DNA of 40,302 bases from Candidatus Zixiibacteriota bacterium (GCA_030605835.1 JAUWHO010000042.1:69732-110033), one strand, 5' to 3'. Counted from the stretch's first letter, positions 2,274 to 20,200 are shown. Made by a program: numbers and translations. Notes: generated from the sequence alone by a model not told the origin.

Positions 2274-2282
2274 GCAAGTGGG

Positions 2283-2891
2283 TCATTCAGTAGGTCGAAG
2301 ACAGAAATTGTCCAAAATCTCAAAATACTCTTTTAGCGATTCCTCTGCCTCTTCAGCTGTGAGCTTCGAGTCCTCATCAATCGCAAGCAAATAATCTATT
2401 GGAGCGTTTAATCCTTCTTGCTTTATGGTTACATCCCACGGTTGATTCTTAAGATGGGAAATCTCCGAAATTTGCCACGCTTTAACATCTTTAAACATAA
2501 GGGCCAAGTTATTAAGAATCTCAATCTCACGAGGAGAAAAAACTGACAGGTCGGGATTCTTTTTCGCCTTAAATTCAATTTCTTTGGACTTTGGGTCAAG
2601 CTCATCTTTCTTTTGGATTAGAGCCAACTTATCCTTAAAATCATCTGGTGGGTTGCCACCTTTTACCTCTAACCAAAATGATTTCGGTACTGGCCCTTTC
2701 TTGAACGCAAAGTATTGAAGTCCTATCGCGGGATATCCGGTCTCTTTAAAATGTTTAAAATCGAAAAAGTATAGAAGCTTCGATATTTTCGTGGTATTTG
2801 CCCATTTTGTTTTCTTGGCGAAAAACAAGACAGCATTAAGCAACTTCAGTCTATAAATATTTGATTCCATTGCGCAATCGCGAACGAACAT
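2283..2891 (-). CDS. Panacea (DUF4065/SocA-like) domain protein, putative antitoxin
   Basis: A 202-residue protein whose first 70 residues match the Panacea/DUF4065 pattern: KLLNAVLFFAKK, TKISKLLYFFDFKHF, then GLQYFAFKKGPVPKSFW. Panacea domains neutralise many unrelated toxins and are also called SocA-like or phage-associated. The C-terminal half is charged and helical (SPREIEILNNLALMFKD, LTAEEAEESLKEYFE). The ATG at 2891 is preceded by AGAGGTG, which favours it over the internal ATG at 2870, which has no ribosome site. A consensus promoter sits 57 bases upstream, so this gene and its downstream toxin-like partner form their own transcription unit next to the terminase gene. Confidence 0.75.
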   Translation of the reverse strand: MFVRDCAMESNIYRLKLLNAVLFFAKKTKWANTTKISKLLYFFDFKHFKETGYPAIGLQYFAFKKGPVPKSFWLEVKGGNPPDDFKDKLALIQKKDELDPKSKEIEFKAKKNPDLSVFSPREIEILNNLALMFKDVKAWQISEISHLKNQPWDVTIKQEGLNAPIDYLLAIDEDSKLTAEEAEESLKEYFEILDNFCLRPTE

Positions 2892-2900
2892 GTCACCTCT

Positions 2901-2930
2901 GGATCTATCTGTAGGAGATTCGACAGATCC
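2901..2930 (-). promoter_or_regulatory. Inverted repeat in the Panacea operon leader, candidate operator
   Basis: ATCTGT at 2907-2912 pairs with ACAGAT at 2923-2928, extended by GGATCT and ATCC on the outside. It lies between the promoter at 2948-2975 and the ATG at 2891, where an autoregulating antitoxin could bind or an RNA hairpin could form. Binding is inferred only. Confidence 0.4.
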
Positions 2931-2947
2931 CCTTCACTCCTTTAGCT

Positions 2948-2975
2948 AATTTAAGACGTTCAGGAGAAATGTCAA
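2948..2975 (-). promoter_or_regulatory. Sigma-70-type promoter of the Panacea cassette
   Basis: On the minus strand, TTGACA (2975-2970), 16 bases, then TAAATT (2953-2948). The same -35/-10 pair occurs upstream of the secretin gene. The predicted start of transcription is about 50 bases before the ATG at 2891. Confidence 0.65.
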
Positions 2976-3063
2976 CGCTTTTTCTCCAAACTATCTTGTG
3001 ATTTTGTAATAGTCCCTCCCGAGCGGCGGTATCAGTTCAAACCTCCAAGACCTCCTTCGCCCA

Positions 3064-4398
3064 CTAAATGTTACGCAGGGCGACGACCTTCGGACTTACG
3101 ATGGTGATACTGTCTTGATAATTCCTCACATTCCATAAAGCCAACGCCAGCGCCATGGCGGCATCGCAGTGGCTGTTATCCTCCCAGGTCAACTCCCGGA
3201 GCTCGTCCTGGAGGGTCCACACCGCTCCCTGGCCAGTGATTTGCTCTACATACGGGCAGGCGACGCCGCCCATCACGAAGGCCTGCTCTAAATTTGCGAG
3301 CAACTCCGCTTTGGCCTTGCCGCCTCTCTCGCCAAAGTTGAATCCTCTGGCGCCTATGTCGGTCAACTCCGAGAGGACCACATCTCCCAGGCCGGTGGAA
3401 TCGATCAGCGTTGGTCCCCGGTATCTCTTGAACCTCTCCCTTATTTTCTCATAGACGTAAGGCCAATCACGCTGAAATCTATCGAAAGCCACCAGTTGGT
3501 AGGGCTTAGCGGTGATGTCGAGGGTTACGCCGACGGTGTATGTCCTCTTGCGCGCCAGATCCCAACCGTGACAGTATATATGACCCGGTATCGGCCCTGA
3601 AAGCCCGGCGGCTTGAGTCAAAGACCTCTGCAAATCTTTTTCCGGGATAATCCGCTCGAGGTCGTCGACGAACATTCCGTATATGTTCTGTTGGACTCTG
3701 GCGGAGGCGGAGGTTTCGATTCTCCTCTCCAAATACTGCTTGCTTATGTATGGATTCTCTCTGGAGTCCCCGGTCTGCACATAGCCTCGGAAAGGGTTCC
3801 TCTCGAGCTCCTGAAATTTGCGGTAGAACCAGTCTTTCCCTTTGGGAGTGGAGGTGAAATCGATCACCCCTTCCCGGTCTGCCAGGCGCATCATGATGAC
3901 ATGTTCGACCACATAGTCGGGATGAGGCTCATATGCCACCTCGTCGAAGTTGATGTAGTCGAAATCGTGCCCCAAGAGGTATTCCCCCCGGTTTTGCGAG
4001 GAGCGCGCCCACAAGACCGCGCCGTTGACGAATTCAATATGCGGGAAGGGGGTCTGGCAAATGTTTCTAACGAAGCTTTCCAGTCTCTTTTTGCCCTGAA
4101 TCAGTCTTACGACTTTGTTGAAGACAATCCCGGCTTGGTCCTGAGTGATGGAGACATTCACCGCAGAGTAATGATCACAGGTGTCCCACTTAAGGGAGCG
4201 GATTTTGAAGAAACAGCGATGCAGAAGTTTTACTGCCTGCACCTGGGATTTTCCCCAGCGGTTGCCGGTGCAAAGCAGGTTTTCAGGCTTGGTCGAGTTT
4301 TGAAGCCAGATCAATTGTCCCGGATGAGGCTCGACCTTTAAGAACTCCCTAGAGAAAAAAACCGGATCAATACAGGCCCGACGCCAGAGGTTCTTCAA
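3064..4398 (-). CDS. Phage terminase large subunit
   Basis: A 444-residue DNA-packaging ATPase/nuclease of the phage terminase type. Walker A is GNRWGKS at 45-51, Walker B is YINFDE with D152 and E153, and the coupling motif TSTPKGK is at 182-188. The RNase H-like nuclease half has its acidic triad in place: D280 (HGWDLARK), D333 (LIDSTGLGD) and D412 (HCDAAMALAL). Both domains therefore look intact, which argues against simple decay. The gene lies downstream of a RelE-like toxin gene and upstream of the Panacea cassette, whereas in phages a portal gene usually follows directly. The expected small terminase partner is not obvious. It could serve a degraded prophage, a satellite or a gene-transfer particle. 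Confidence 0.92.
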   Translation of the reverse strand: MKNLWRRACIDPVFFSREFLKVEPHPGQLIWLQNSTKPENLLCTGNRWGKSQVQAVKLLHRCFFKIRSLKWDTCDHYSAVNVSITQDQAGIVFNKVVRLIQGKKRLESFVRNICQTPFPHIEFVNGAVLWARSSQNRGEYLLGHDFDYINFDEVAYEPHPDYVVEHVIMMRLADREGVIDFTSTPKGKDWFYRKFQELERNPFRGYVQTGDSRENPYISKQYLERRIETSASARVQQNIYGMFVDDLERIIPEKDLQRSLTQAAGLSGPIPGHIYCHGWDLARKRTYTVGVTLDITAKPYQLVAFDRFQRDWPYVYEKIRERFKRYRGPTLIDSTGLGDVVLSELTDIGARGFNFGERGGKAKAELLANLEQAFVMGGVACPYVEQITGQGAVWTLQDELRELTWEDNSHCDAAMALALALWNVRNYQDSITIVSPKVVALRNI

Positions 4399-4423
4399 TC
4401 TACGAGACCCCGCAATGATGCTG

Positions 4424-4440
4424 TCACAATTGAATTGTGA
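4424..4440 (-). promoter_or_regulatory. Perfect palindrome upstream of the terminase gene
   Basis: TCACAATT-G-AATTGTGA, perfect 8-base arms around one base, lies in the 53-base gap between the RelE-like toxin stop and the terminase ATG. It could be a protein operator or a small intercistronic hairpin. No T run or obvious promoter accompanies it. Confidence 0.45.
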
Positions 4441-4451
4441 TCAGAGATTAG

Positions 4452-4847
4452 TCACTTGCTTTGGAATTGCCACTCTTGAAAACTATTCATATTCCCAGAA
4501 ATCAAGTCCTCGTGGATTTGCTCAGCGATCTCCAACCATGGAAACTTGTTGTAATCAAACTTCGAACGCTGTTCTGGTGAGACAAAGATGCCGAAGACAC
4601 AGGATTTTTCGCGGTTCACCATATAGATATATCTGAAGCCTCTTCTACCCCTCACCCGCAGTCGAAACAGTTTTCCCTGCAGATGCTGCGGGAGATTGCG
4701 CATCATCTGCCCTGCGCCATAAGGGTCGGCTTGAGACTTCTGCAACTGCTTTCGGAGGCTCCTGTATGCTTCCGGATGCGACTTCTCGAAATCTTCTATC
4801 TGGGATATGAATTCCTTGTGAGCAAGAAACCTAAATGAGCTTGACAA
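4452..4847 (-). CDS. RelE/ParE-like toxin
   Basis: A 131-residue protein with the layout of the RelE/ParE fold: an opening strand (FRFLAHKEFISQI), a helical hairpin (EKSHPEAYRSLRKQLQ), the L-x-G-x-L-F-R-L-R-V strand, then RGRRGFRYIYMVN and CVFGIFVSPEQR. RelE toxins cut ribosome-bound mRNA and ParE toxins block gyrase; which applies cannot be told here. Its TTG start lies inside the end of the preceding gene (17-base overlap), a strong sign of coupled expression. AAAGAAGG stands directly before the TTG, which is too close for a normal ribosome site. The C-terminus (about 30 residues past the fold) is acidic and longer than in minimal RelE proteins. Confidence 0.65.
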   Translation of the reverse strand: MSSSFRFLAHKEFISQIEDFEKSHPEAYRSLRKQLQKSQADPYGAGQMMRNLPQHLQGKLFRLRVRGRRGFRYIYMVNREKSCVFGIFVSPEQRSKFDYNKFPWLEIAEQIHEDLISGNMNSFQEWQFQSK

Positions 4848-5454
4848 CCTTCTTTACCTTATCCAAGTCAATCCTTGACCGCTCCAAGCCCCTGTCAATT
4901 AAGGTCATCGCTTGGATGAAGTCGGGGTTAAGGCTTAACTCCAGGTCCTCACAATCATCCTCGGACAAGTTCACCTTGAACTCGTCAGGGAGCCTCTCTC
5001 GCAGTATTATCTCTCCTTCGCTTGCCTTCTGCAGAGTCGGGTCCTCGTATGCGCGTTGTAGCAACTTGGGCCATTGCAGATATCCCATCTCATCCACGGC
5101 CTGGTCTACCTTGGTCAGGTCGTTCTTCAGGATATGGCTTATTGGTACCTGATAAAACCCTAGTACCCTCGGGTCTGAAAGATAATATCTGTTTCCGCGA
5201 TTACCCTCCTCCGTCTCGAATCTTGAAATGGATAGATGTCCCATGGAGAGTAGAAGATCGTTCTCGTCCCGAAGCTGCTCGCTAAACTGCCCGAAGTTCG
5301 ACTTCTGGAATTCGAAGGGCACGTACTTCAGCTCCTTTGTACTGAAATAGACCACCTTATTCAACCTTGTAGCACCCCACACACCGTCTTTGAATCGGCC
5401 TATCAGATACAGAAGAAAGAGTCTCCGATACGTGTTCTTTGAGATAGTTCCCAT
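4831..5454 (-). CDS. Putative Panacea/YwgA-like antitoxin paired with the RelE-like toxin
   Basis: A 207-residue protein. Residues about 8-75 resemble the winged-helix start of Panacea/DUF4065 and YwgA-type proteins: ATRLNKVVYFSTKEL, an aromatic strand FEFQKSNFGQFSEQL (compare the YGPYS..L motif), then DLLLSMGHL. The similarity is weaker than for the protein at 2283-2891. The C-terminal part is acidic (LSEDDCEDLELSLNPDF) and ends in a basic segment that overlaps the toxin gene by 17 bases. Gene order, overlap and the toxin-like partner support an antitoxin role. The ATG at 5454 has GGAG about 9 bases upstream and follows the zinc-ribbon gene by 14 bases. Confidence 0.5.
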   Translation of the reverse strand: MGTISKNTYRRLFLLYLIGRFKDGVWGATRLNKVVYFSTKELKYVPFEFQKSNFGQFSEQLRDENDLLLSMGHLSISRFETEEGNRGNRYYLSDPRVLGFYQVPISHILKNDLTKVDQAVDEMGYLQWPKLLQRAYEDPTLQKASEGEIILRERLPDEFKVNLSEDDCEDLELSLNPDFIQAMTLIDRGLERSRIDLDKVKKVVKLI

Positions 5455-5468
5455 GGGTTACACTCCGC

Positions 5469-5897
5469 TTAGTCGCTCTGTTTCCACAAGGACTCCAGCA
5501 TAGACAATTGCCCAGTCTTCATCGCAGTCTCGATTCTCCTGCGCAGATACCACGCAGTCTTATATGGGAGATTCAAGTTCCGGCTCAATTCAACTGCGCG
5601 GACTCTGCTTGCGGTAGCAAACATCAAGTAGATTGCAAGAAACCATTTAGACAGAGGAATATAGCTTTTATGAAATATCGTCCCGGAGGTGGCCGAGAAT
5701 TGATAGCGGCAACTCGAGCATTCGAACTTGTCAACTGCCTTGAGCCTGTAAACTTTCTTAGCCTTGCACCTGGGACACACCGGTCCGTTGGGCCAACGCC
5801 TATCCTCCAGGAATCTGAGGCATTGGCCGTCGTCACCATAACTTTTTATGATCTCTAACAGGCTCACGTCAACGCTACTGGATACCACTATTAACAA
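5469..5897 (-). CDS. Stand-alone IS1595-type zinc-ribbon/HTH protein
   Basis: A 142-residue protein matching the N-terminal part of IS1595-family transposases: a zinc ribbon with CPRC and CSSC pairs, the SGTIFHKSYIPLSKWF motif, then an HTH region (ELSRNLNLPYKTAWYLRRRIETAM). The DDE catalytic domain is absent, and no remnant follows because the next gene starts 14 bases later. It is therefore either a domesticated DNA-binding protein or a truncated transposase. It heads a minus-strand run containing the Panacea-like and RelE-like genes and sits behind a consensus promoter, so a regulatory role is plausible. The start is uncertain: TTG at 5897, or a GTG at 5888 better spaced from AAGAAG. Confidence 0.7.
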   Translation of the reverse strand: MLIVVSSSVDVSLLEIIKSYGDDGQCLRFLEDRRWPNGPVCPRCKAKKVYRLKAVDKFECSSCRYQFSATSGTIFHKSYIPLSKWFLAIYLMFATASRVRAVELSRNLNLPYKTAWYLRRRIETAMKTGQLSMLESLWKQSD

Positions 5898-5918
5898 TCT
5901 TCTTATTAGTTGTACCCG

Positions 5919-5947
5919 AATATAGATCGGTTAGTTCCTGCTGTCAA
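5919..5947 (-). promoter_or_regulatory. Strong sigma-70-type promoter of the zinc-ribbon/toxin-antitoxin operon
   Basis: On the minus strand, TTGACA (5947-5942), exactly 17 bases, then TATATT (5924-5919). The predicted transcript starts near 5912, only about 15-24 bases before the possible start codons of the zinc-ribbon gene. Confidence 0.75.
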
Positions 5948-6071
5948 GTAATTTTTTTGAAAAAGATTTGAGGTCTCATCCGTACGTACGCCTCTAACTT
6001 GTTGCTAATACGAGAGCAGTCAAATATTCCACCTGCTTTAGCGTTATAAGCATTCTTGCCAACCTGGCTTT

Positions 6072-6506
6072 TCACTCTTCGTATTCCTTGAGTGCCTCTT
6101 TTCTAATCTCCTCTAAGAGTTCCTTGAGCACCCCCTGATAATCTGTTCCCCCGCAAATTTTGTTCTTCAGTTCCACCGCCCTCAAGCCGTCGGTGATTTT
6201 CAGTTCCATCTCGCCCTGGTTCAACTTCTCGAGAACATTGTCGCGGATGGTGTTCAAAAGGACTTCATCGGCTGTGATCTCTCTCTGGCGGGCTGCAGGT
6301 GTGTCGGCGGTCGAAATCCTGCTCTTTCGAGTGGAGAGGCGGACATCATTCTCGCTGACCGATTTGCCCTTCAGGCCGGAGACGACCCTCTTGGCGGAAC
6401 TTTTCGCTCTCCTGCGAGCTACCTTCTTCACCGGCTCGATAACCGCGGGTCTCTCCGCGATCGCCGAAAGAGAATCCTCCGATACTACCGCTTCCACTCT
6501 GGACAA
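6072..6506 (-). CDS. Small phage protein downstream of portal, unknown function
   Basis: About 144 residues. The N-terminal half is basic and low in complexity (VKKVARRRAKSSAKRVV), and the C-terminal half is acidic and helical (VLLNTIRDNVLEKLNQGE, ITDGLRAVELKNKI, ending EEIRKEALKEYEE). The IxDGLxAxxLK pattern followed by a helical tail recalls some phage small terminase or head proteins, but I cannot assign a family. I take TTG at 6506 because GGAGGG lies 6 bases upstream; a TTG at 6512 overlaps the portal stop, and a GTG lies at 6497. The frame is open further upstream, but there it overlaps the portal gene. Position right after portal, with tight spacing, indicates one transcript. Confidence 0.55.
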   Translation of the reverse strand: MSRVEAVVSEDSLSAIAERPAVIEPVKKVARRRAKSSAKRVVSGLKGKSVSENDVRLSTRKSRISTADTPAARQREITADEVLLNTIRDNVLEKLNQGEMELKITDGLRAVELKNKICGGTDYQGVLKELLEEIRKEALKEYEE

Positions 6507-6508
6507 AA

Positions 6509-7795
6509 TCAACCCTCCAACTCTCTCTTTGCCTCTTCGACAGTTATGAGACCGGCCTCCTTCTTCTTGACGATGTTTTCGAGCTGAATCTTCTCCGCCT
6601 GTCTCTGCTGCAAAAGACCGAAGGTCTTGCGGTTGTCGAAGTGATACTCGCTCTCTAACTCGAAGCCGTGAAGTGCCAACTCGATCGAGTGCAACCACTC
6701 CATAAACCGCTTGGCCGCCCTCTGAACCGAGACGACGTTTCTCAAGACGATGTCGTATTTGAATTGGGCCCAGGTCTGGGTAGTGCCGTAAGAGTAGCCG
6801 AGCATAAAAGGGTCCAGATGACAGCCGGCACAGATGTCCTCGACCATGGCGCGATGAGTCAAATACCAGGAGGAGGTGTTTCCGCCGTGGCTGCTTGGCC
6901 CGATATATTTTATCTCGACATCGCTCCAGGTGATGGGGTTGTCGTCCGGCTCTAAGTTCTTAATCATCTCCACGGTGTCATCGAAGTACTTGTTGGCCCT
7001 CTCGATATACCCTTCCTCGGTCTCGGTGGAAAGACGCTCCGGAGGTTTTATGGAGATCTGCAGGCGATAGTAACCGGCATTGTGGGCCGCCTTCTGCATA
7101 TCGTCGACCAGTCGCTGTTCGATGCGGGCGACGAAGGGGATCGATTGCAATATGGAACGCCCCCGAGGGTCGGAGGCCTCACTGTCCAGACCGTGGTAGA
7201 AGGTGGAGGTGGGATTGAGCTTGATCTTTCTGTCTTCAATCACCTGGTAGATGTCCCATTCCCGGTCGCGGTTGGGAAAAAGCCTCAGGGTCTTTGCGTC
7301 AAGCAGGTAAAAGCGGTCTATCCGATCTCTGGCGGGAGTGAGCACTACCTCCCCACAAAATGCCCCATCGGTGAAAAGCGAGTTAAAGAACGCGCTCAAA
7401 AGCGAATCCCCGCCCCCAAACTTCTGGAAACTGTAAGGGAAGAGGCGACGATCTAAACCTTTAAGAACTCCGGTGGCCTCTTGCAACAGTCCCTGGTCAT
7501 CGCTCCCCTTCAGGGTGAAATACGTCGGTGCCGTCGCCAATCGAGCCCAGGTCCAGATGGCGGAGTTTAAGACCGGAATGTTGTTCCTCAAGAACCGATA
7601 TAGACCGATTCGGAAGCTGTGCCCATCTATCCCCTTGGGATTATAGTAATACCCCTCATCCAGATCGGGCTGGAAGCTTTCCCTGGAGACCGGCTTATTG
7701 GGGTATACTCGCCTGACAGATGGTGTGGTTCGCCCACTGACGGCCTCTTTAGAAAGGGCAATTCTTTTTTTGAGACTTGAAAGGAATCCTCTCAT
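6509..7795 (-). CDS. Phage portal protein
   Basis: A 428-residue protein with portal features: an N-terminal region with FLRNNIPVLNSAIWTWARLA, a central part with VVLTPARDRIDRFYLLDAKTL followed by FYHGLDSEASDPRGRS (the conserved portal region around the clip and stem), and a C-terminal helix ending KKKEAGLITVEEAKREL, the usual portal tail. Portals form the dodecameric ring at the capsid vertex and dock the terminase. The ATG at 7795 has GGAG five bases upstream. Portal and terminase are separated here by about 2.1 kb carrying a small phage gene and a toxin-antitoxin cassette instead of being adjacent. No protease, capsid or tail gene follows. Confidence 0.85.
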   Translation of the reverse strand: MRGFLSSLKKRIALSKEAVSGRTTPSVRRVYPNKPVSRESFQPDLDEGYYYNPKGIDGHSFRIGLYRFLRNNIPVLNSAIWTWARLATAPTYFTLKGSDDQGLLQEATGVLKGLDRRLFPYSFQKFGGGDSLLSAFFNSLFTDGAFCGEVVLTPARDRIDRFYLLDAKTLRLFPNRDREWDIYQVIEDRKIKLNPTSTFYHGLDSEASDPRGRSILQSIPFVARIEQRLVDDMQKAAHNAGYYRLQISIKPPERLSTETEEGYIERANKYFDDTVEMIKNLEPDDNPITWSDVEIKYIGPSSHGGNTSSWYLTHRAMVEDICAGCHLDPFMLGYSYGTTQTWAQFKYDIVLRNVVSVQRAAKRFMEWLHSIELALHGFELESEYHFDNRKTFGLLQQRQAEKIQLENIVKKKEAGLITVEEAKRELEG

Positions 7796-8194: not shown

Positions 8195-8223
8195 TTGACA
8201 ACGGGCTGGCAGTTCAGTAAATT
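8195..8223 (+). promoter_or_regulatory. Sigma-70-type promoter of the secretin unit
   Basis: TTGACA, 17 bases, TAAATT. It precedes the secretin gene by about 290 bases. The -35/-10 pair is the same as in the Panacea promoter at 2948-2975. Confidence 0.6.
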
Positions 8224-8409
8224 AAGAGTGAAACAGTTGGTTTAGCGGGCAGAGGGATTGTCAAATAGTCCAACACCAGAACCGCTAACGTGGGGTTTGT
8301 TGCTGATGGAGTTCTCTTTTTCTGCGCGCAGAGTACGGATTTCGTTAGAGCTTCAGGGTCGTCGAGGCATCTCCAGGTTGTCAGAAAATGAAGGCGGCGA
8401 GAATTGTCA

Positions 8410-8517
8410 ATGGGAAGACTTATAGAAGTGCCGGGCAAGATCGCCCGGTTAGCTGAACTGCTTATAACCAAAAATCCAGAGCTCATCAGGGATAGCGAGC
8501 TGAATCTCGATGTTTGA
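8410..8517 (+). CDS. Possible 35-residue leader ORF overlapping the secretin start
   Basis: Reads MGRLIEVPGKIARLAELL and ends ELNLDV, with a balanced protein-like composition. Its TGA stop overlaps the TTG start of the secretin gene (TTGA), a layout repeated at dinB. There is no clear ribosome site. It may be a coupling peptide or the tail of a decayed gene; the in-frame stop upstream is near 8387. Confidence 0.3.
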   Translation: MGRLIEVPGKIARLAELLITKNPELIRDSELNLDV

Positions 8518-10148
8518 AGGAATCGCAACACGAAAACGCGCCCATGGCTTGGTCATCTTGTCACCGTAGATTTGCCGGCTTAATTCTCGCTATCTGTATG
8601 TCGGTCTTACTCATCAGCTCCGAAAGAGTCCTCTCACAACTTGCAACTTTCGAGTGCAATACTCGTTACGAAACCTGCAAGTCGCTGTATAAAGAAAAGA
8701 GATTCAGCGAAAGCGCCGCCCTCCTGGGGAGAACCCTACAGCTTCATCCGGAGTGCGAAAACGGCGAAATGCACCTCCTCCTGGGACGATGCTATCTTTC
8801 TCTGTCGAAGATAGATGAAGCCGAGGATGAATTCCGCATTGTCACCCTGAGCTTCCCGTCAACGAAGGCTGCGGCTTCTGCTCTGGAGGAGCTTTTCCTT
8901 CTAAGACAGCGCGAGGAAAAGACAACCTCATCTGACTCGTTAGCTCTTCAAGCCCAAGTCTTTCTTGACAGCAGTAGTCTTATCTCCCAGGAGATCGAAC
9001 AGCCCCTGGTGAGCAACATCTTCTTCGAGACCGACATCCGCCAGGTCTTAACCGACATCTCCCAGCAGACCGCCATCCCCATCATCCCGGACAACACCGT
9101 TCAGGGATTAGTGACTTATGAGGCCATTGACGTCCCTCTGGAGGAGGCTCTGCTGGCGGTTCTCACTCCCTTAGGTTTTTCCTACAGATGGACCGGCACT
9201 TATTATCTTGTGGGCACTGCTTCCCCGGATCAGCCCTCTTTTGTGGCTTTGAGTGAGACCAGAGTCTATAAGCCCAACTACCTGAAGGTAACCGAGGTCA
9301 AAGATCTGCTCTCCTCCTTTTACGAGCCATACATCAGCCTGAGCAAAGAGGTCAACAGCATGACCGTCACCGGCTCCCCCCAGCTTCTGGCCCGCTTTGA
9401 GGAAGACGTTGCCAAAATCGACTGCCCCCCGGGGCAGGTGATGATCGAGGCCGTGATCATGGAGATCTCCCACGAGGTCCTGGTTAAGATGGGCATAGAT
9501 TGGAGCGCCATCGGGACTGCCGGCAAACAGGCTTTGAGCGTTGTCACCGACCATACGAATGTCCTTGACAAGTCCCTGGGAATTGATTATAGTGAGACTG
9601 ACTTCAAACTTGGCAAGTATCGCTTCGATCTCACTGCTACACTTGAGGCTTTAGTGCAGACTGGCGACGCCGACATTCGGGCAAACCCGAGCATCAGCAC
9701 CCTTGACGGTCAGAAAGCCACCATCGACATTGGCCGCGAGGAGTGGTTCGAGCTTATCACTACCGGATATATGGGATACCAGTACGCCAACCTTCAGTCA
9801 ATCAAGTCCGGCATAATCCTTAACATCACCCCATACATCGCAGAGGGAGGCGAGATAACGGTTATGATCGAGCCGGAGGTTTCGGATGTTACCTCCCGGG
9901 GCGCCACCGGATATCCGGTCATCAGCAAAAGGTCGGTCTCGACCACGGTGCGGGTGCGCGATGGAGAGACCATTACCATCGGTGGTCTGGCATTTCATAG
10001 CAAAACGGTGATCCGAAAAAAGATTCCCTTACTTGGGAGTATTCCTTTTTTGGGATATATTTTTCGATACAATGAGGAGGAGAAAGAAGAGCGTGAGGTG
10101 GTGGTTTTCATCACTCCGCACATTTTGGAGATGGGGGTTTCTCGATAA
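8514..10148 (+). CDS. Secretin (type II/IV pilus outer-membrane channel family)
   Basis: A 544-residue secretin. An N-terminal signal segment (LILAICMSVLLISS) is followed by a short TPR-like region (about 45-120), an N0/STN-like domain (IFFETDIRQVLTDISQQ to TYYLVGT), one N1-like domain with VKDLLSSFYEPYISL, and the secretin core with VMIEAVIMEIS, ANPSISTLDGQKATIDIG and the C-terminal VRVRDGETITIGGL...IPLLGSIPFLGYIFR...VVVFITPHI signature. Secretins form multimeric outer-membrane gates. TTG at 8514 overlaps a small ORF stop; ATG at 8544 is an alternative. No GspE-like ATPase, inner-membrane platform or pseudopilin gene is adjacent, so it either serves a distant machine or works with the secreted proteins downstream. 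Confidence 0.93.
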   Translation: MKESQHENAPMAWSSCHRRFAGLILAICMSVLLISSERVLSQLATFECNTRYETCKSLYKEKRFSESAALLGRTLQLHPECENGEMHLLLGRCYLSLSKIDEAEDEFRIVTLSFPSTKAAASALEELFLLRQREEKTTSSDSLALQAQVFLDSSSLISQEIEQPLVSNIFFETDIRQVLTDISQQTAIPIIPDNTVQGLVTYEAIDVPLEEALLAVLTPLGFSYRWTGTYYLVGTASPDQPSFVALSETRVYKPNYLKVTEVKDLLSSFYEPYISLSKEVNSMTVTGSPQLLARFEEDVAKIDCPPGQVMIEAVIMEISHEVLVKMGIDWSAIGTAGKQALSVVTDHTNVLDKSLGIDYSETDFKLGKYRFDLTATLEALVQTGDADIRANPSISTLDGQKATIDIGREEWFELITTGYMGYQYANLQSIKSGIILNITPYIAEGGEITVMIEPEVSDVTSRGATGYPVISKRSVSTTVRVRDGETITIGGLAFHSKTVIRKKIPLLGSIPFLGYIFRYNEEEKEEREVVVFITPHILEMGVSR

Positions 10149-10509
10149 AAAACGAGCCGGGTGCTTGGCCGCGCACAGACCGAGGGCACTCGACTCGTCC
10201 CAACCGGACCCTCCGTTCGGAAGGCCCAGCGGTATTGTCAAGATACTGCTGGTGAAATCTATTGGCAAGGGAAATCTCGGGGTTGAATAAAAGGTATGTT
10301 CGTCCCGGGGTTCCCTCCCAATAGATCTATCGGGACAATCCCAAATAGTTTAACGATAGATTGCGGGGCAAAGTTCCACTTTTGAGAATGTTTTTTGCCT
10401 CGCAGGTTGAACCGGAGGAAGATGACCTCCACGGCATCTTGCTCAGGCGATTGAGTAACTGAAAAGATGATAACACTTCAAAGATTTTCTTCCCTACCAG
10501 GCCGGGCGT
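10149..10509 (+). other. Gap after the secretin gene
   Basis: I see no gene and no convincing promoter. A GTCCCG/CGGGAC inverted repeat spans about 10303-10337. This gap and the structured segment that follows separate the secretin from the secreted-protein genes by 541 bases. Confidence 0.4.
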
Positions 10510-10682
10510 CCGGTGAGCTTGAATTATTTGGGCTCACTGGCCGGGCACGTTTTGGCACGGGAGGAAAAAACGGAACCGCCCCGGGGGTTACTTCTTGGAA
10601 CACGCCCCCGGGTGCGGCGCCTGTGGACTGTGACGGCCGCGCCACAGCCACATAAAAATTAAACTACGGAAGAAAGGAGGTG
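10510..10682 (+). promoter_or_regulatory. Structured 5' leader with three hairpins and a full-length Shine-Dalgarno sequence
   Basis: Three hairpins follow one another: CCGGTGAGC (10510-10518) with GCTCACTGG (10532-10540); a GC-rich stem CCGCcCCGGGGG (10576-10587) with CCCCCGGgtGCGG (10605-10617); and CTGTGG (10621-10626) with CCACAG (10642-10647). Then comes AGAAAGGAGGTG at 10671-10682, a 12-base match to the 3' end of 16S rRNA, 7 bases before the ATG. It matches no riboswitch class I can recall. The next gene is probably highly expressed, and the leader may stabilise or control its mRNA. Confidence 0.45.
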
Positions 10683-10689
10683 TTCCAAG

Positions 10690-11358
10690 ATGAAAAACAT
10701 TCTTGTATTCGCGCTTATGCTGGCATTTCCGCTAACGAGTGCTGTGGCCGACCCGGTCCAAGGCCCGTTACCTCCAGGGGGATGGGGGACGGACTGCGAC
10801 AACTGGATCCAGTATACCGACCCGTGGGCCAGTGGACACTTGATCTACGACCCTCTTTACTCGGGTGGCGACGGTTGGATGGTGTGTCCCGGGTGCGACC
10901 CAGTTGTATGGCCAGCGTTGGACATCGAAATGTGGATTGAGATGGAGTGCATTCTGACGTGGGCTGAGACACACGCGAAGATCCACCGTTTCTCTGACTA
11001 CAACGATTTTTACCTCTATTTCCACGGGACCAGCGCTTGCAACAACGGACAGTACATCATTACCACCCCGCCGGATTCCATCGGGAGTCTGAACTACTTG
11101 CCCTTCTATGTGGACATGTTTGGACGCACCGGTCCCAGCTACGGAACGGACATTCCTCTGACGTGGGAAGCCAGCGTGGACGGGGGTGCCTACGCCCTGA
11201 TGGTAGACGGTACCGCAGGCGCCAAGCAGTTCCTGGTTGACGCTTGTGACCACTATTTCACCATTAGGATTCTTGTTGACGTGGAGTACCACCAGGAAGA
11301 CGGTTATTACTACCTTGGTGGTCCGGGCTGCACCATCTGTCCAGCAGTGCCGCTGTAA
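10690..11358 (+). CDS. Secreted protein, putative major subunit of a secretin-linked locus
   Basis: 222 residues with a clear Sec signal peptide (MKNILVFALMLAFPLTSAVA, cleavage expected after A20) and a mature, aromatic, Cys-containing, beta-rich chain. Its C-terminal 80 residues align with those of the protein at 13184-13858: both share Y..DIPLTWE.S..GG and end in a GYY.L strand, so the two are paralogous domains. The 12-base ribosome site and structured leader suggest strong expression, as expected for a structural subunit. I do not recognise the family. An attenuator-like hairpin follows the stop codon. Neighbours are the secretin upstream and a chaperone-like protein downstream. Confidence 0.8.
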   Translation: MKNILVFALMLAFPLTSAVADPVQGPLPPGGWGTDCDNWIQYTDPWASGHLIYDPLYSGGDGWMVCPGCDPVVWPALDIEMWIEMECILTWAETHAKIHRFSDYNDFYLYFHGTSACNNGQYIITTPPDSIGSLNYLPFYVDMFGRTGPSYGTDIPLTWEASVDGGAYALMVDGTAGAKQFLVDACDHYFTIRILVDVEYHQEDGYYYLGGPGCTICPAVPL

Positions 11359-11380
11359 GTCGACTTGACTGACCCTAATT

Positions 11381-11414
11381 CCGGCCAAGGCCCGGTTGGC
11401 TGGAATGGGGTTTT
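11381..11414 (+). terminator. Possible attenuator hairpin between secreted-protein genes
   Basis: CC-G-GCCAA (11381-11388) pairs with TTGGC-T-GG (11396-11403) across a GGCCCGG loop, followed ten bases later by TTTT. A partial terminator here would raise the level of the upstream subunit relative to the downstream chaperone-like gene. Confidence 0.4.
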
Positions 11415-11476
11415 ATGAGCTGAAGGCGCACCAAGAATTGGAATATGCTGAGGCGCTTTTAACAAGAGTTAGTGAG

Positions 11477-13153
11477 ATGAATGGCAAAAGATATCCTTCT
11501 CATTTGCGTTGGTCATGGTGTTGTTTTCTTACGGTTGCATTGCATCTGGTTTTGGCCTCAAGCGTATTAGGACAAGCCTCCATCATCCCGCTACTACAGG
11601 AAATATCCATGAGCCGGGGTGGAAGAACTCGTTTTCAACTTAGAATGGGCAACCGCACGGCCGAGGCCCTGACCTTTTCGATGCACGCTTATGACTTTGA
11701 TATCAATGAGAACGGGATGCCTTTTGCAAGCGTGGAGGAGACCGAGTGGAGTTGTGCTGATTGGATAACTTTTACCCCGCAAACTTTTGAACTGCAAGGG
11801 GATGGAACGCAAATAGTCGAGGGTCTGGTTCGCGCCCCGAAAGACGCGCAGGGGGCTTACTATGCATTCATAACTTCTGATTTCCGGACCCCCACGAAAC
11901 CATTGAGTTTCGGTGAAGGGGATGAGTCTCAAATTCAGCTGCAGTTGGGACGGGCAGTGTCTTCGGTTCTGATGGTAACCCTACGGTCGAGCAAGAATTA
12001 CGTCCAGTTGGAACCTGACACCCTTATTCTGACGTCGGGCCAGAGCGCTTCTTTTGATGTTGCGCTGGACCCGGCTGTGCAGGGCAGTGCTAACGTCTGG
12101 GAGGTTACCTTGCTGGTGGCGAACACCGGCAACGTCCACACTGTGGCCCGGGGAGATGTGAGCATCTGGACTGAGGACATGCGAGTCGTGGAAAGGGCGA
12201 AGTTATTGGCCGGTAAGGGCTATGTCCTACCCGGGAAAAGCCGACTCTTCAACGCTCAGGGCACGAAGGCTCTGGACGATGGAATCTATATGGTCAAGGT
12301 CTCGATCCGAACCCGGGAAGGGAAGTTCGTCCAGGGATCGTTTCCATATTCGATCATTCACGGCAAGTCGATTCCAGGGGCCGCATCAGAAGCCATTCGG
12401 GCACTCGTTCAAGCGTCGATGCCCCGCTTTTCGATTTCAGAACGCCTGATAGATTTCAAGGTCAGCCCCAAGAGCACCAGAACAAGAGGCATCAGGCTCG
12501 CCAATCATCTATCAGACACTCTATCAATTTACGCAAAGGTAGTATCTTGGTCCATAAGTGACAGTGGTAAGGTTGTTCTCAACCCCGATGAATCGGACGT
12601 GGTCAAACCCTGTGTATCTTGGATAAGCGTATCGCCTAGCCCAATTTTGCTACCGCCCAAAAGGTCTGGAACGGCAAAAGTAAGGGTGACTGCTCCGGAA
12701 CAACTCGACGGTGAATATTATGCAGCTGTTATCTTTCAAACCTCGAATTCTGAACCTGCGCTCCCGACAGAATTGCTGTTAGGTCGAACTGCTCTGGTAA
12801 CGGTTTCATCCTCAAGGAACCTGGAATATAGGGCCGATATAGAATCCGTTACTTACCAGCTAATTAGTCCCATGCTGCGAGGATTCGTTGTCAATGTTGC
12901 AAATAACGGCAATGTACATTGTTTCGTCTCGGGAAAATTGGAACTTTATGATAGACAGTGGAATCTTGTCATGGAACCCATCACTTTTGGCGGGACACGC
13001 CATTATATTCTACCTCAAAGGGTCCGGGGCTATTTCGTAGCGTGCCCCGGTGCATTGGAGCCGGGAAGGTACGAGGCAGTTGTAAAAGTGGAGTACCATG
13101 AGGAGGCCGCTCCTCTCATCTCCAAAGTCTATTTCGAGTCAAAAGGGAAATGA
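11477..13153 (+). CDS. Secreted protein with duplicated PapD/DUF916-like beta-sandwich regions
   Basis: About 558 residues from ATG 11477, which begins a plausible signal peptide (basic start, then CCFLTVALHLVLASSVLGQA). In-frame starts at 11396 and 11405 lie in or next to a hairpin and would put 24-27 hydrophilic residues before the signal. The mature chain has two similar halves: IIPLLQEISMSRGG..FQLRMGNRTAEALTF with WITFTPQTFELQGDGTQ, and FSISERLIDFKVSPKS...WISVSPSPILLPPKRSG. The pattern of a conserved strand, then 'W-I-x-x-x-P' and a G-x-Y-Y-A strand, recalls periplasmic pilus chaperones and DUF916 surface proteins. A role in handling or displaying the neighbouring subunits is inferred. 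Confidence 0.7.
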   Translation: MNGKRYPSHLRWSWCCFLTVALHLVLASSVLGQASIIPLLQEISMSRGGRTRFQLRMGNRTAEALTFSMHAYDFDINENGMPFASVEETEWSCADWITFTPQTFELQGDGTQIVEGLVRAPKDAQGAYYAFITSDFRTPTKPLSFGEGDESQIQLQLGRAVSSVLMVTLRSSKNYVQLEPDTLILTSGQSASFDVALDPAVQGSANVWEVTLLVANTGNVHTVARGDVSIWTEDMRVVERAKLLAGKGYVLPGKSRLFNAQGTKALDDGIYMVKVSIRTREGKFVQGSFPYSIIHGKSIPGAASEAIRALVQASMPRFSISERLIDFKVSPKSTRTRGIRLANHLSDTLSIYAKVVSWSISDSGKVVLNPDESDVVKPCVSWISVSPSPILLPPKRSGTAKVRVTAPEQLDGEYYAAVIFQTSNSEPALPTELLLGRTALVTVSSSRNLEYRADIESVTYQLISPMLRGFVVNVANNGNVHCFVSGKLELYDRQWNLVMEPITFGGTRHYILPQRVRGYFVACPGALEPGRYEAVVKVEYHEEAAPLISKVYFESKGK

Positions 13154-13183
13154 AGCGGATCACTCCAATTCAGATGACCAAGA

Positions 13184-13858
13184 ATGGAACGGATGAGGAA
13201 CAATACTGAGTTAGCTTTCTCGATCTTCCTAACGAGAATCTTCCTTTTTTTGACGGTCGTACTGGTTTGCATGCTGCTCACCTCGCCCCAGCAAGCGATC
13301 TCCGGGCAGAAGATCAAAAAAGCAGAAGGAGTGGGTATTAAGGCAGCAAAGAACATCTCCAAAGTAACCCACTTCACCCCCGCATCCTCAACCTGGGGAA
13401 CTCAGACTCCTCCATTGGTCGATTTCCCTTACGAAGTCGATAAACCCGCCTCGATGGAATTCAACCTGGACTGGACGAACTATCAGATTCATCAGGTCAC
13501 CAATGATTCTGAGATCGAAATCATTCTATCCGGTAATGTAACTTCATCAAATAGTCTATTCTGGACTCTCACTACTGCCTCTCCTCAACCTGGCGCCCCG
13601 CCCAGTCTATTCTTCATCGAACAGGCATTTGCCGGAACTGGGTCGGAGTACAGCGCGGATATTCCCCTGACCTGGGAAATCTCTCTGAATGGCGGTCCCT
13701 TCAGCCCAATGACCATTCAGCCGGATAACAGCCTGTCGGTTACCTTCCCCAGCGGCTCTCATAGCTTCAAGGTGCGCATCACCGGCGCCCCCCAGCATCA
13801 GCAGGCGAATGGCTACTATCAGCTTGTCTTGTCGCAAAGCCTTATCCCATCGCTATAG
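13184..13858 (+). CDS. Secreted protein paralogous to the subunit at 10690
   Basis: 224 residues with an N-terminal hydrophobic export signal (IFLFLTVVLVCMLLTS). The C-terminal domain (EYSADIPLTWEISLNGG to NGYYQL) is homologous by eye to the domain ending the 10690 protein. The middle holds a strand-rich segment (IEIILSGNVTSSNSLFWTLTT). There is no cysteine pattern like that of its paralogue. It follows the chaperone-like gene by 30 bases and precedes a strong terminator, so it is the last gene of the unit and might be a minor or tip component. ATG 13184 or 13193 may be the start; ribosome sites are weak. Confidence 0.75.
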   Translation: MERMRNNTELAFSIFLTRIFLFLTVVLVCMLLTSPQQAISGQKIKKAEGVGIKAAKNISKVTHFTPASSTWGTQTPPLVDFPYEVDKPASMEFNLDWTNYQIHQVTNDSEIEIILSGNVTSSNSLFWTLTTASPQPGAPPSLFFIEQAFAGTGSEYSADIPLTWEISLNGGPFSPMTIQPDNSLSVTFPSGSHSFKVRITGAPQHQQANGYYQLVLSQSLIPSL

Positions 13859-13885
13859 TGAAGACCCATAAGGGGTTGGCTTAAG

Positions 13886-13910
13886 CCGGGGAAGGCGCCC
13901 CGGTTTTTTT
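13886..13910 (+). terminator. Rho-independent terminator of the secretin-linked unit
   Basis: CCGGGG/CCCCGG stem with loop AAGGCG, followed by seven T, 28 bases after the last gene of the locus. Confidence 0.9.
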
Positions 13911-13942: not shown

Positions 13943-13971
13943 TTGACAACTGCACTAATGTGCAGTATATT
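13943..13971 (+). promoter_or_regulatory. Promoter with LexA-type operator in its spacer, upstream of the dinB pair
   Basis: TTGACA (13943-13948), a 17-base spacer and TATATT (13966-13971) form a near-ideal promoter. The spacer holds the perfect palindrome CTGCACTAATGTGCAG (13950-13965), ending directly at the -10 box. It fits TGCNC-N4-GTGCA, which I recall as the LexA box reported for Fibrobacter succinogenes. Because the unit encodes DNA polymerase IV, SOS control by LexA is the natural reading. No lexA gene is in the window. Confidence 0.8.
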
Positions 13972-14040
13972 ATTGCCGAGGATATAGATGTCAGAGGGCT
14001 CAAGCTTCCGAGTCCTTTCCAGGACTCAGGTCTGTTTCCT

Positions 14041-14289
14041 ATGGCAACGAGGATAAATCAAATCGTGAGCGTCGGGGCGATATTTGAGAAAGGTAAAATC
14101 AAGCCGGCCTGGATAAAGTGGAACGGCCGAGTCTTTAAAATAGACCAGATCCCCTACCGCTGGCTCACAAACGAGGGGGCAGCCGAGATCATAAATTTCT
14201 CGGTCGTCTCCGGAGCGAACCTGTTCCATCTAACTTACAACCTCAGAAACCAGCAGTGGACCCTGATGGAGGTGGAGGATTACATTTGA
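14041..14289 (+). CDS. Small DUF6504-like protein encoded ahead of DNA polymerase IV
   Basis: 82 residues from ATG 14041; an open frame reaches 13960, but that lies in the promoter. The sequence has the pattern of small proteins linked to translesion polymerases (DUF6504-like): PAWIKWNGRVFKIDQIPYRW in the first half and FHLTYNLRNQQWTLMEVED at the end, i.e. a 'W-x-G-R' strand and a late 'x-W-x-L-x-x-V-x-D' strand. Its stop codon overlaps the TTG start of dinB, so the two are translationally coupled under the SOS-type promoter. The function of the family is unknown; a role in modulating the polymerase is inferred from linkage alone. Confidence 0.6.
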   Translation: MATRINQIVSVGAIFEKGKIKPAWIKWNGRVFKIDQIPYRWLTNEGAAEIINFSVVSGANLFHLTYNLRNQQWTLMEVEDYI

Positions 14290-15548
14290 TAAGACGAACC
14301 ATCTTCCACATAGACATTAATGCCTTCTTTGCCTCCGTGGAGCAGACCGCCAACCCCTCCCTGAAAGGCAAGCCGATCGCCACCATCGGCAGGGCCAAGC
14401 GCACCGTGGTGACTGCCCCCTCCTATGAGGCCAGAAGATCGGGGGTCAAAACCGGTATGAACGTATGGGAGGCGAAAAAGGCCTGCCCCTCCCTTATTTT
14501 AGTGGTCTCCAAAAACTCCCTCTATGTGGACGTCAGCAAAAAATTGGTTAAGCTCTATGAATCGGTCACTCCCCTGGTGGAGGTCTTCTCCATCGATGAG
14601 GCTTTCTTAGATGTCACCGAGGTCTTAGGGCGCTATCAGCCTGAGGCTCTTCCGCCTGGGGCGGGCAACTCCCCGGAGGCGTTAGCCCGCGAGATAAAAA
14701 GACGGATAAGGAACCAGTTCGATATAACCTGTTCGGTCGGGATTGCTTCCAATAAACTTCTGGCCAAATTGGGGAGCGAACTTCAAAAGCCCGACGGTCT
14801 GGTGCACCTCCGACCAGACCAAGTTCCGCAGGTGTTGGAAAATCTGCCGGTGGATGAACTCTGCGGCATCGGTCGTCGCTTAAAGCAGGATTTAGCCAAT
14901 CTGGGGATATATACCTGTGGACAACTGGCGCGCTATCCGGTTGAAATTTTAAAGAGGCGATATGGTGTCCGCGGGATCTGGCTCCACGACATGGCAAACG
15001 GAGTTGACAACTCCGAGGTGATTCCCCCCTGGTCTCTGCCGGCGGATAAATCCGTGGGGCACAGCATGACTCTCCCCGAAGACATAAATGACCGGGAGAG
15101 AATCTGCTGGTATATCTCTCAGTTAAGCGAGCAGGTTGCCCGGCGGATGCGAAGAGGCCACTATCAAGGCAAGACTGTCAGTTTAATCCTGCGTTATTCC
15201 GACTTCGAGACTTTTTCGAAAGATCACACCATAAAAAAATTCATCGACAGCGGCTATCGTATTGCCCAGGTCGCCATCCACACTCTGGATACCATCAAGC
15301 TCAAGCAGGCCATCCGCTTGGTGGGGGTGAGCGTCTCCAATCTGATTCAGGGGACTTACCAATTGCCGCTCTTCGAGAGGGAGAAAAAAGAGAGAGCGGT
15401 AACCGAAACTATGGACCGAATCAACGACAAATGGGGGGAGCTGACTCTTCATCCGGCGGTGTTGCTCCACCGCCATCCTCACAAAGGCGTGATAGCTCCC
15501 GCCTGGAGACCCCACGGGATCAAGTACATCACTTATCCGAATAACTGA
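14286..15548 (+). CDS. dinB: DNA polymerase IV (Y-family translesion polymerase)
   Basis: 420 residues. The catalytic carboxylates are present: D10 in HIDINAFFASVE and D104/E105 in FSIDEAFLD. F15 is at the steric-gate position that excludes ribonucleotides. The fingers/thumb signature CSVGIASNKLLAKLGSE is followed by the helix-hairpin-helix part (VDELCGIGRRLKQDLANLGI), and the little-finger domain ends in PLFE-type residues (QLPLFERE) that may bind the sliding clamp. TTG at 14286 is chosen because GGAGG lies 7 bases upstream and upstream codons overlap the preceding gene. It copies past lesions and mismatched ends at low fidelity, usually after SOS induction. Confidence 0.95.
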   Translation: MIRRTIFHIDINAFFASVEQTANPSLKGKPIATIGRAKRTVVTAPSYEARRSGVKTGMNVWEAKKACPSLILVVSKNSLYVDVSKKLVKLYESVTPLVEVFSIDEAFLDVTEVLGRYQPEALPPGAGNSPEALAREIKRRIRNQFDITCSVGIASNKLLAKLGSELQKPDGLVHLRPDQVPQVLENLPVDELCGIGRRLKQDLANLGIYTCGQLARYPVEILKRRYGVRGIWLHDMANGVDNSEVIPPWSLPADKSVGHSMTLPEDINDRERICWYISQLSEQVARRMRRGHYQGKTVSLILRYSDFETFSKDHTIKKFIDSGYRIAQVAIHTLDTIKLKQAIRLVGVSVSNLIQGTYQLPLFEREKKERAVTETMDRINDKWGELTLHPAVLLHRHPHKGVIAPAWRPHGIKYITYPNN

Positions 15549-17202: not shown

Positions 17203-20200
17203 CTACTTCACCACCATCATCCTCCTGGTCTCGGTGAAATCCCCGGCGGTCAACTTGTAGAAGTACAGACCGGAGGACACTTCTGAAGCATCCCAGGAGA
17301 CTGACCTGTATCCTGCCTGCTGTTTCTCATCAACAACAGTCGCCACTTTCTGTCCGAGGACATTGTAAACCTCCAGCTTGACCTGACTGCTCACTGGCAG
17401 CTGGTAACTGATGGTCGTCCTGGCATTGAATGGATTGGGGAAACTCTGGGCCAGGTAATAGTCTTCAGGAATAGCCAGTGAAGCTAAAGCCTCACCCTCC
17501 TCCCAACCAATCACGGTCCATTCGGTAAAGCGCGACAGACCGGTGAAATCGCCCGGCTCCTTGGTGAACAGGAAGCTGTCTTCGGTCTCGACCGAGGAGG
17601 GATAATCACCGAGATGCCCCCAGTAGGTGTATTCTCCAGAGGGAGCACGGCCGGGAACGTATTGGGTAACGGTGCGCTCGGTCACAGAGGAAGGCGGGAG
17701 CGTCTTCCCGGTGCGGAGAAGCAGAGGACCAAAGGGCGTGCCGTTAGGGGCGATCACATCAGTCCAGATATCGATATCGATAGGAAGTGGCCCCAAGTTG
17801 TCGATGACAACCGAATATTCGAAGTATCCTCCCTCCGGGGGAATTACAACCGGCGGATCCAACGGCGTCATTGTGAGCACCAGGTTGCTGACCCCGTCGG
17901 CCACAGTCGTGAATCTGATAGCGCAGGGAGTCTCAATCGGCATGGCGTGCTGGCTATAGGAATCATTAAACAGATACTGGAGTCCGATTTCACCGTTGTG
18001 GTTCTCCATTCCCACGCTGCACATTGCGAGATTTGCCAGCTCCTGATAGTTCAGGATAATCTCCCCGTCCCCGCTGGGAGTCGGGTAGTATGCGGGGTCA
18101 AGCAGCATTATCTGGAAGGTGTTGGGCCCGATGTTGGTGTAGTGAGGCACCTGATACCACTCCACGATGCACCTGTGATTGGTGGTATCATAATAGCAGC
18201 AGATCTGCCCGCCGTTGTCCGGATTCAAATTACACCAGCAAGCAGCGATGATGTTATTGGGGTCCCAGCTGGTAGGTATCGGGGAGTTCCAGCGAGAGGT
18301 GTTCGTGGTGTAACCTATCTTGATCCAGCCGTTAGAGCAGATGCTGATTCTGTTGAAGTCCCGGCCGTAATATCGGAAGGTGAAGGGCAGGCCTACCCGG
18401 GCGGTTTGATCATCAGCAAGGTCTATGACTGTTCCGTTTCCTCCCGCCATCGGCGCGATCTCCAGCCAGTCGTATTCCGGGGCTCCGAAGGTCTCCCACA
18501 TGTCATAGGCGCGGTAACCATACCCGTCGGGACCCGTAGGCAGGAAGCGGAGATCCCCCACGAGCACGGTGAAGTCGTCGCTGTGAGTATATCCGCCCCG
18601 GGCAGAGAAGTCGAGGGTAAACCACACTTCTGATCCGTTCGGGGTATAAAGGTCGGCTGAGACTCCGGAGAAGACAACCACCACTTCTTCACCGCTGGCA
18701 AGGGAGGGGATAAACGCAGGGTCCCCGGGAACGGTTATGTCCGGGTGGTCGCAGCCCAGCTCTACCCAGATATCGAAGGCATCACTGGTTCCCTTGTTCT
18801 TCACGGTGACGTGGAAATCGACAGTTTCGCCGGGATCTAAGTTGCCGTTGTTGTTGCCAGCGGAATCGGCAATCGCCACACTCTCGAACTCAGTTGTGGG
18901 CGAATGTGCGAGGATGTTGAAATGCGAAGTCCAGACCCCGTCGTCAGAGGTGGCGGTCTGAGCGAAGGTGATGACGTGCAGATCAGGAATAAGGGGGGAG
19001 GCCTCGATTTCGAATCCATCGGTCACCACTTTGGTCGAACCCGCAGGGATGTCACCGTAGTTCTCAAGGCTGTCGAGTATGGTGGCATAGCTATCATCGG
19101 TGGAGATGAAGACGTTCACGTTGTTGGCAGTGGCGGTACCTATGTTCTTCACGGTGATGGACAAGTAAACGTCTTCTGCGTAGTCGAGCAGGCCGTTGTT
19201 GTTGCCGCTGGAGTCGTTGATCTCAAGAGAGTCGTAGACTACATGGGCGCCAGTGGCGGGAACAATCGGCACCTCCTCGGTGTAGCGGTGGTAATTCATC
19301 TTCGTGACGGTGACCACCATTGTGTTGCCGGCTTGCTGAGGCGCAATCTGAATCGGGAATGGCAGCCCGGTGCCCTCCGCCACCCCGATGATCTCGCCAT
19401 TGACCGTCAGGGCAATAATGGCTCCGACATCGGCCGTCACGGTGAACTCCTTCACCCCGCTGTACATTACGGGATCGTGTGAGACCGTGAGATTTTGCGG
19501 CACCTCCGAAAACAGAGTGATGAAGGCGTCCCCGTGATGATGGAACAGGTGGTAGGTGTGAACCTTGTTGCTGGTGTTATAGGGCCAGCCCGAAGCCTCC
19601 AGATAATACTTGCCGTAAGCGCTGGCGAAACAGACCCGGGAATTGCTCGGCCCTATGGGATCGTAACCGTAGCCGGGATCGAAATCGGGCCAGATGCAGT
19701 CGTACATCCCCCAGGTGTAAGTATCGTTCACAAAGGAATACGACACTTCACTGGCAGCCGTCACCCCCAGGGCGCGGTGCTCCTCCCGATGGAACGCCTC
19801 CGCGAAACACTCGCTGTAATGATTGAATTTCCCCGTCAAGCAGTTCATGGAAAATACAAAGGGATAATCATCGTTATGCAGTCCGGCGAGGTCTGGTATG
19901 AGGTAATGAGGCTCTGACCAGCCGTCGATGTCTCCGTGGTCGCGATGCTGCACGATGAAGGCGCCGCTGTTGATGGCAGCGTTTATGCCATCGGCGTTGC
20001 CATTCCAGTTGGTCAGGTGAGAGGGTGTCTCCGGGATGTAACCCAATCCCTCAGGTCCGAAATAGTCGATTATCATCCAGGTGTTCTGGTTGGTGGACCA
20101 TTCTGGCGGGGCTCCCCCGGAATAACCAGCGTATTGTCGGACCGGGTGTTTCCCCAGCCGATGTTCTAAGAAGCCGTGTATGACTTCACAGCAGAGAATA

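Follow-up and report, generated by a model that had tools for sequence, protein, structure and literature searches.

We describe a locus on the plus strand of a Zixibacteria genome that encodes a secretin (SEC), a tandem chaperone-like protein (CHAP) and two secreted subunit-like proteins (DIP1 and DIP2), and that probably specifies a dedicated "chaperone-secretin" export or assembly pathway. The locus lies in a stretch of 40,302 nucleotides (Candidatus Zixiibacteriota bacterium, GCA_030605835.1 JAUWHO010000042.1:69732-110033), hereafter the window, from whose first letter all its positions are counted; the nearest named relative of the genome is candidate division Zixibacteria bacterium DG_27. 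The gene set of SEC, CHAP and subunits is a conserved system. It recurs in distant bacterial groups and therefore appears to be an export or fibre-assembly system that has not been described before and in which a secretin replaces the usher of other systems. This matches a preliminary description of the same DNA, which had proposed an undescribed secretion or surface-fibre system in which a chaperone-like protein feeds a secretin; from the gene set conserved across phyla, we infer the chaperoning, the channel role and the fibre. The parts of the system are recognisable, and their combination is new. The locus fits neither the definition of chaperone-usher systems (no usher) nor that of type II secretion systems (T2SS) or type IV pili (T4P) (no ATPase, platform or pseudopilins).

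The neighbourhoods of full-length CHAP proteins were read in 34 loci. One of them (L120) was set aside, as its contig ends right after CHAP and a search of the G164 phylum provided no second locus to stand in for it. The 33 assessable loci comprise 10 from Zixibacteria, two from a second phylum and 21 from a third, with related loci counted separately despite common ancestry; two long open reading frames (ORFs) covering about half of the CHAP profile (L126 and L127) were excluded from the full-length count. SEC was found within 1.3 kb of CHAP and on the same strand in 32 of the 33 loci, mostly overlapping or touching it, and lies 2.5 kb away on the opposite strand in the 33rd (L185). When 132 genomes of the host phylum were searched with a CHAP profile, 10 contained a CHAP that was full-length or truncated solely by the end of a contig, and all of these CHAPs lie in the window, in the loci of the seven close SEC homologues introduced below or in two further loci. 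The wider search recovered full-length CHAP in three genomes that are related to the host only at the level of the taxonomic domain; for one of them, 44 of 103 genomes of its phylum showed a CHAP match at E ≤ 1e-15. The third phylum is probably Thermotogota, since PF06030, a family matched by CHAP, was also hit in the named control Thermotoga maritima. Gene order differs, being SEC-DIP1-CHAP-DIP2 in the window and subunits-CHAP-SEC in most other loci. In a contig scan, only the DG_27 relative was matched, whose contig stops inside SEC. The second-phylum loci L118 and L187 (11400-13300) also hold a single-length CHAP relative and a secreted protein of 312-313 aa, as if the locus had gained a second chaperone.

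The neighbourhood survey thus found CHAP, SEC and subunits associated in distant loci of three phyla. The opposite pattern, in which the secreted proteins would occur mostly without a secretin, was not observed: distant homologous subunits adjoin CHAP and a secretin, in a survey that started from CHAP and SEC and not from the subunits. A phage-like module lies directly upstream of the locus (1860-7795, minus strand) and contains, next to small unknown genes, a terminase large subunit (3064-4398, minus strand) and a portal protein (6509-7795, minus strand), both recognised by PHROGs; the same terminase-portal order precedes SEC on the DG_27 contig (L021). Such a neighbourhood could mean that the genes are adjacent by chance or were brought by the phage module. 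However, the association is retained in the 33 assessable loci across three phyla, which effectively refutes this explanation, and neither viral contigs nor phage records yielded a convincing match to CHAP. A tblastn search of phages and plasmids with CHAP returned weak matches only, including two on Deinococcus plasmids that adjoin large hypothetical or carboxypeptidase-regulatory-like proteins and no annotated secretin.

SEC (8514-10148, plus strand) combines a TPR N-terminus, N0/N1 domains and a secretin domain (Pfam Secretin, Secretin_N and TPR_19). Its ORF comprises 544 aa from a TTG codon, and an ATG at 8544 is also a possible start. That the locus holds a full secretin, as claimed before, was confirmed by the Pfam Secretin match (E = 6.6e-44); the Secretin_N match (E = 1.9e-6) was barely over the cut-off and N0 was weak. 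SEC was rejected as GspD (190.5 bits against a model cut-off of 351.35) and as PilQ (167.3 bits against 284.35). A search of relatives identified, apart from a same-genus copy, seven close SEC homologues (43-48%) that score well above all other secretins; a CHAP homologue adjoins all seven, and small secreted proteins are found in the same clusters. The secretins of CHAP loci formed one group in a maximum-likelihood tree (support 88/61; 88% of bootstrap trees), nested in a larger supported group (98/95); the remaining three members of the latter derive from clusters that contain pseudopilin-like genes. Three rows were left out of this tree, two with long branches and one that was short and sparsely filled. 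The neighbourhood of one secretin (G395d) proved to be a second CHAP locus.

Regarding other features of SEC, the N-terminal stretch of the L025 protein weakly resembles FadL barrels, and many loci encode an extra protein 3' of SEC with a secretin-like N-terminus or, by inspection, a barrel-like C-terminus. In L118 (4682-6484, minus strand) and L170 (10070-11170, plus strand), the protein after SEC has secretin N-domains or a divergent N-terminus, and a C-terminus that, by inspection, resembles a barrel of the outer membrane; a role as partner or pilot of the secretin is possible. A PDB sequence search with the SEC of a probable Thermotogota matched known secretins only, and a viral-contig scan with SEC returned two distant secretins.

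The host genome encodes three further secretins besides SEC. Two belong to T2SS-like clusters (L029 and L031) with ATPase, platform and pseudopilin-like genes, and one to a cluster that is pilMNOPQ-like by inspection (L030); ATPase and platform genes lie on contigs C14, C17 and C30. Because the other three each belong to their own machine, SEC stands as a fourth secretin without an adjoining one. These ATPase and platform genes, together with the nearest outside relatives in the tree, which lie in T2SS/T4P-type clusters, would be expected if SEC belonged to a T2SS or type IV pilus encoded elsewhere and were a mere neighbour of the other genes. We consider this improbable, as the other machines each encode their own secretin, the linkage between SEC and CHAP is retained in three phyla, and SEC scores far under the GspD and PilQ cut-offs. 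A complete pilus locus elsewhere that uses SEC, which the preliminary description had named as possible counter-evidence, was therefore not found. More improbable still is that SEC is a PilQ for DNA uptake. Both secretins of T. maritima, TM1117 and TM0088, are labelled pilQ in the Thermotoga genome paper (PMC5637354); however, the label was given by homology only, and TM1117 is only presumably the secretin described here. Representatives of the probable Thermotogota, moreover, have another secretin, which is much longer and falls outside the group, and the short one sits with CHAP and secreted subunits.

CHAP (11396-13153, plus strand) is built of two halves, each with two predicted Ig-like domains, which align at 27% identity and have NxGNVH and YY motifs in common. 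Its ORF opens with TTG at 11396, and the likely start is ATG 11477, which would place a signal peptide near the N-terminus. A PDB sequence search with CHAP gave no match. Compared by hhalign with the single-length chaperones of usher-like loci, CHAP scored 98.1 (E = 8e-14) over 246 columns covering both domains. These single-length relatives (about 300 aa) adjoin DUF4402 subunits and a protein of about 860 aa in other Zixibacteria, and similar large proteins in more distant genomes. They match PapD_N in five of nine members (best E = 2e-5) and score 93.2 against the PapD-family chaperones of E. coli K-12, and the large partner protein scores 90.1 against E. coli ushers over 586 columns. Divergent usher-like clusters (L075-L083 in Zixibacteria; L122, L123, L125, L127, L129, L133 and L134 in more distant genomes) comprise DUF4402-type or other small subunits, a chaperone of about 300 aa and an usher-like protein of 800-1000 aa, which escapes the Pfam Usher model and was linked to E. 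coli ushers by profile comparison. In total, the single-length relatives pair with an usher-like protein in 15 loci (eight in Zixibacteria, seven of which built the usher profile, and seven independent ones in more distant genomes). They occur with a secretin in two loci only, both of which also encode a full-length CHAP, and eight single-length proteins had neither an usher-like nor a secretin neighbour by these profiles. The usher-like profile had no match beside full-length CHAPs, the CHAP of L127 being of half coverage. Double-length CHAP goes with the secretin, and its single-length relatives go with the usher-like protein.

The family that CHAP matches directly is WxLIP_PGBD (DUF916, PF06030), found in eight of 10 CHAP family members (best E = 6.4e-7); the window CHAP remained under the cut-off (16.3 against 27.3 bits), which the L182 CHAP exceeds. 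Of the two PapD/DUF916-like halves proposed in advance, the two-half build was upheld; of the two likenesses, the direct match is to DUF916, and PapD was reached only via the single-length chaperones. The best rival explanation is that CHAP is no periplasmic chaperone and is itself exported to serve as a scaffold on the surface, comparable to the WxL-interacting protein of Gram-positives; it would form a surface complex with the secreted proteins, and the secretin would only export them. This is a possible, though rather unlikely, reading, to which the matches in the CHAP family and in T. maritima lend support, as does the prediction that a WxLIP strand completes the β-sandwich of WxL in Gram-positives (PMC10599100). 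Because of that prediction, strand complementation would fit the chaperone and the scaffold alike. However, the close relatives of the CHAP halves in Zixibacteria adjoin DUF4402 subunits and usher-like proteins, a setting that calls for a chaperone, and the subunits tested had no WxL domain match.

DIP1 (10690-11358, plus strand) and DIP2 (13184-13858, plus strand) are paralogues with a common DIPLTWExSxxGG core (29% identity over 133 aa, E = 6e-14), so that the second secreted protein with this domain, as described before, is indeed present. DIP1 likewise proved to be a signal-peptide protein, by inspection, with a ribosome-binding site read directly in the sequence (AAGGAGGTG, 10674-10682, plus strand) 7 nt before its ATG. 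Both convincing copies in the host genome are in this locus; a search for a third gave nothing convincing. The DIP2 core is 47% identical to proteins adjoining CHAP and SEC in L023 and L024. The small secreted proteins appear dissimilar between groups, and profile comparisons connect them: DIP scored 87.5 over 125 columns against a bridging set from L183, L184 and L188, the bridging set scored 97.4 against the widespread SUBB family, and SUBC scored 99.6 against SUBB, with reversed-sequence controls at ≤ 1. Several subunits carry a C-terminal GxYxGxIxxT-like strand that resembles pilus subunits by inspection. Pfam revealed no convincing family and no WxL domain in the subunits tested, DIP and SUBB had no similarity to DUF4402 profiles, and a PDB sequence search with a subunit of a probable Thermotogota gave no credible match. 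Viral-contig scans yielded no match for DIP, and phage collections none that was convincing.

The genes of the window locus are followed by an intrinsic terminator (13883-13906, plus strand) with a 9-pair stem that folds as a hairpin and a T run after it. A promoter-like site (TTGACA-17-TAAATT, 8195-8223, plus strand) matches the consensus in 10 of 12 positions; it is weak evidence, because eight such sites were found against 4.8 expected from shuffles, i.e., no clear excess. SEC and DIP1 are separated by a gap of 541 bp with strong predicted RNA structure, so that one transcript for both is unproven. Hairpins predicted at 10560-10690, directly upstream of DIP1 (z = -2.8; none of 200 shuffles equally stable), are possibly a regulatory or mRNA processing site, and Rfam matched no family within the locus. 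The unit running from promoter to terminator, as previously proposed, therefore holds for its terminator; its promoter is weak. As had been noted before, no ATPase, platform or pseudopilin was recognised within the locus.

In the pathway that we propose, subunits and CHAP would cross the inner membrane via Sec. CHAP, with its two chaperone-like halves, would bind one or two periplasmic subunits, probably lending a β-strand, and would hand them to the SEC ring, the putative outer-membrane channel in place of the usher. The subunits could then reach the surface as a fibre or stalked complex, and export would be driven by folding and strand exchange, not by ATP hydrolysis. Several points weigh against this pathway. 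The secretin systems known so far rely on an inner-membrane machine powered by ATP, for which no counterpart was seen here. The comparison of CHAP with PapD is weak when made directly (4.7), and its direct Pfam match is to WxLIP, a surface protein family. The direct profile similarity between DIP and SUBB is also weak (3.4), and their link hence rests on the bridging set. The tree gives moderate support to the monophyly of the CHAP-locus secretins (88/61), and SEC, 541 bp from DIP1 in the window, may be transcribed separately. AlphaFold models of the window proteins, made from two-row alignments, were of low confidence.

Compared with chaperone-usher systems (FimC/FimD and PapD/PapC), the locus likewise combines β-rich secreted subunits, an Ig protein resembling periplasmic chaperones and an outer-membrane channel without an ATPase, and the two halves of CHAP are homologues of the chaperones found in usher-like loci; it differs in having a secretin and no usher, a double-length chaperone and subunits that match no pilin family. 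The DUF4402-chaperone-usher-like clusters (L075-L081 and L083) have the same chaperone superfamily next to a large protein of the outer membrane and a number of small secreted subunits, whereas their chaperone is single-length, their barrel usher-like and their DUF4402 subunits unrelated to DIP and SUBB by profile. Gram-positive WxL/WxLIP clusters also encode a two-domain Ig-like protein with small secreted β-rich proteins (PMC10599100), and members of the CHAP family match WxLIP_PGBD; the present loci, in contrast, have diderm hosts, a secretin and tandem halves, and no WxL domain was detected. SEC resembles GspD and PilQ in its N0/N1-like domains, but its locus lacks ATPase, platform and pseudopilins, and its scores fall well below the equivalog cut-offs. 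Like pIV of filamentous phages, SEC is a secretin outside T2SS and T4P, and it matches PHROG_1012 (E = 5e-54); however, the upstream phage genes are of the tailed-phage type, and neither Pfam nor PHROGs recognised filamentous-phage coat or assembly genes beside SEC.

The prevailing view is that secretins depend on an inner-membrane machine powered by ATP, and that fibres assembled by chaperones require an usher. A chaperone-like protein and a secretin that are conserved together without a motor would bridge the two and would suggest that outer-membrane channels are exchangeable in evolution; if its function were shown, the pathway would be new. We found no description of a chaperone-secretin system in the open literature (subscription papers and preprints lay outside the search). 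In a survey of secretion systems, Thermotogae were the only diderm clade without any system searched (PMC4793230). A bolder reading, which we hold tentatively and with slightly more doubt than belief, is that the pathway lies outside all numbered types, as an ATPase-free secretin ring that a tandem β-sandwich chaperone loads from the periplasm and that is present in at least three diderm phyla, and may be the protein export system missing from Thermotogota (PMC4793230). It would provide Thermotogota with a candidate protein export system and offers a look at the WxL-interacting family in diderms; as cultured Thermotogota probably carry it, it can be tested.

Two other regions of the window caught our interest. 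Downstream of the locus, a promoter-like TTGACA-17-TATATT site (13943-13971) overlaps a perfect palindrome, ACTGCACTAATGTGCAGT, upstream of an ORF (13960-14289) and a Y-family DNA polymerase (14256-15548); the palindrome is possibly an SOS-type operator. Further on, a C25 (gingipain-like) peptidase and a beta-helix protein (17203-21405 and 25390-27246, minus strand) both end in a C-terminal Por_Secre_tail, and a type IX-like sorting system may therefore operate in the host.
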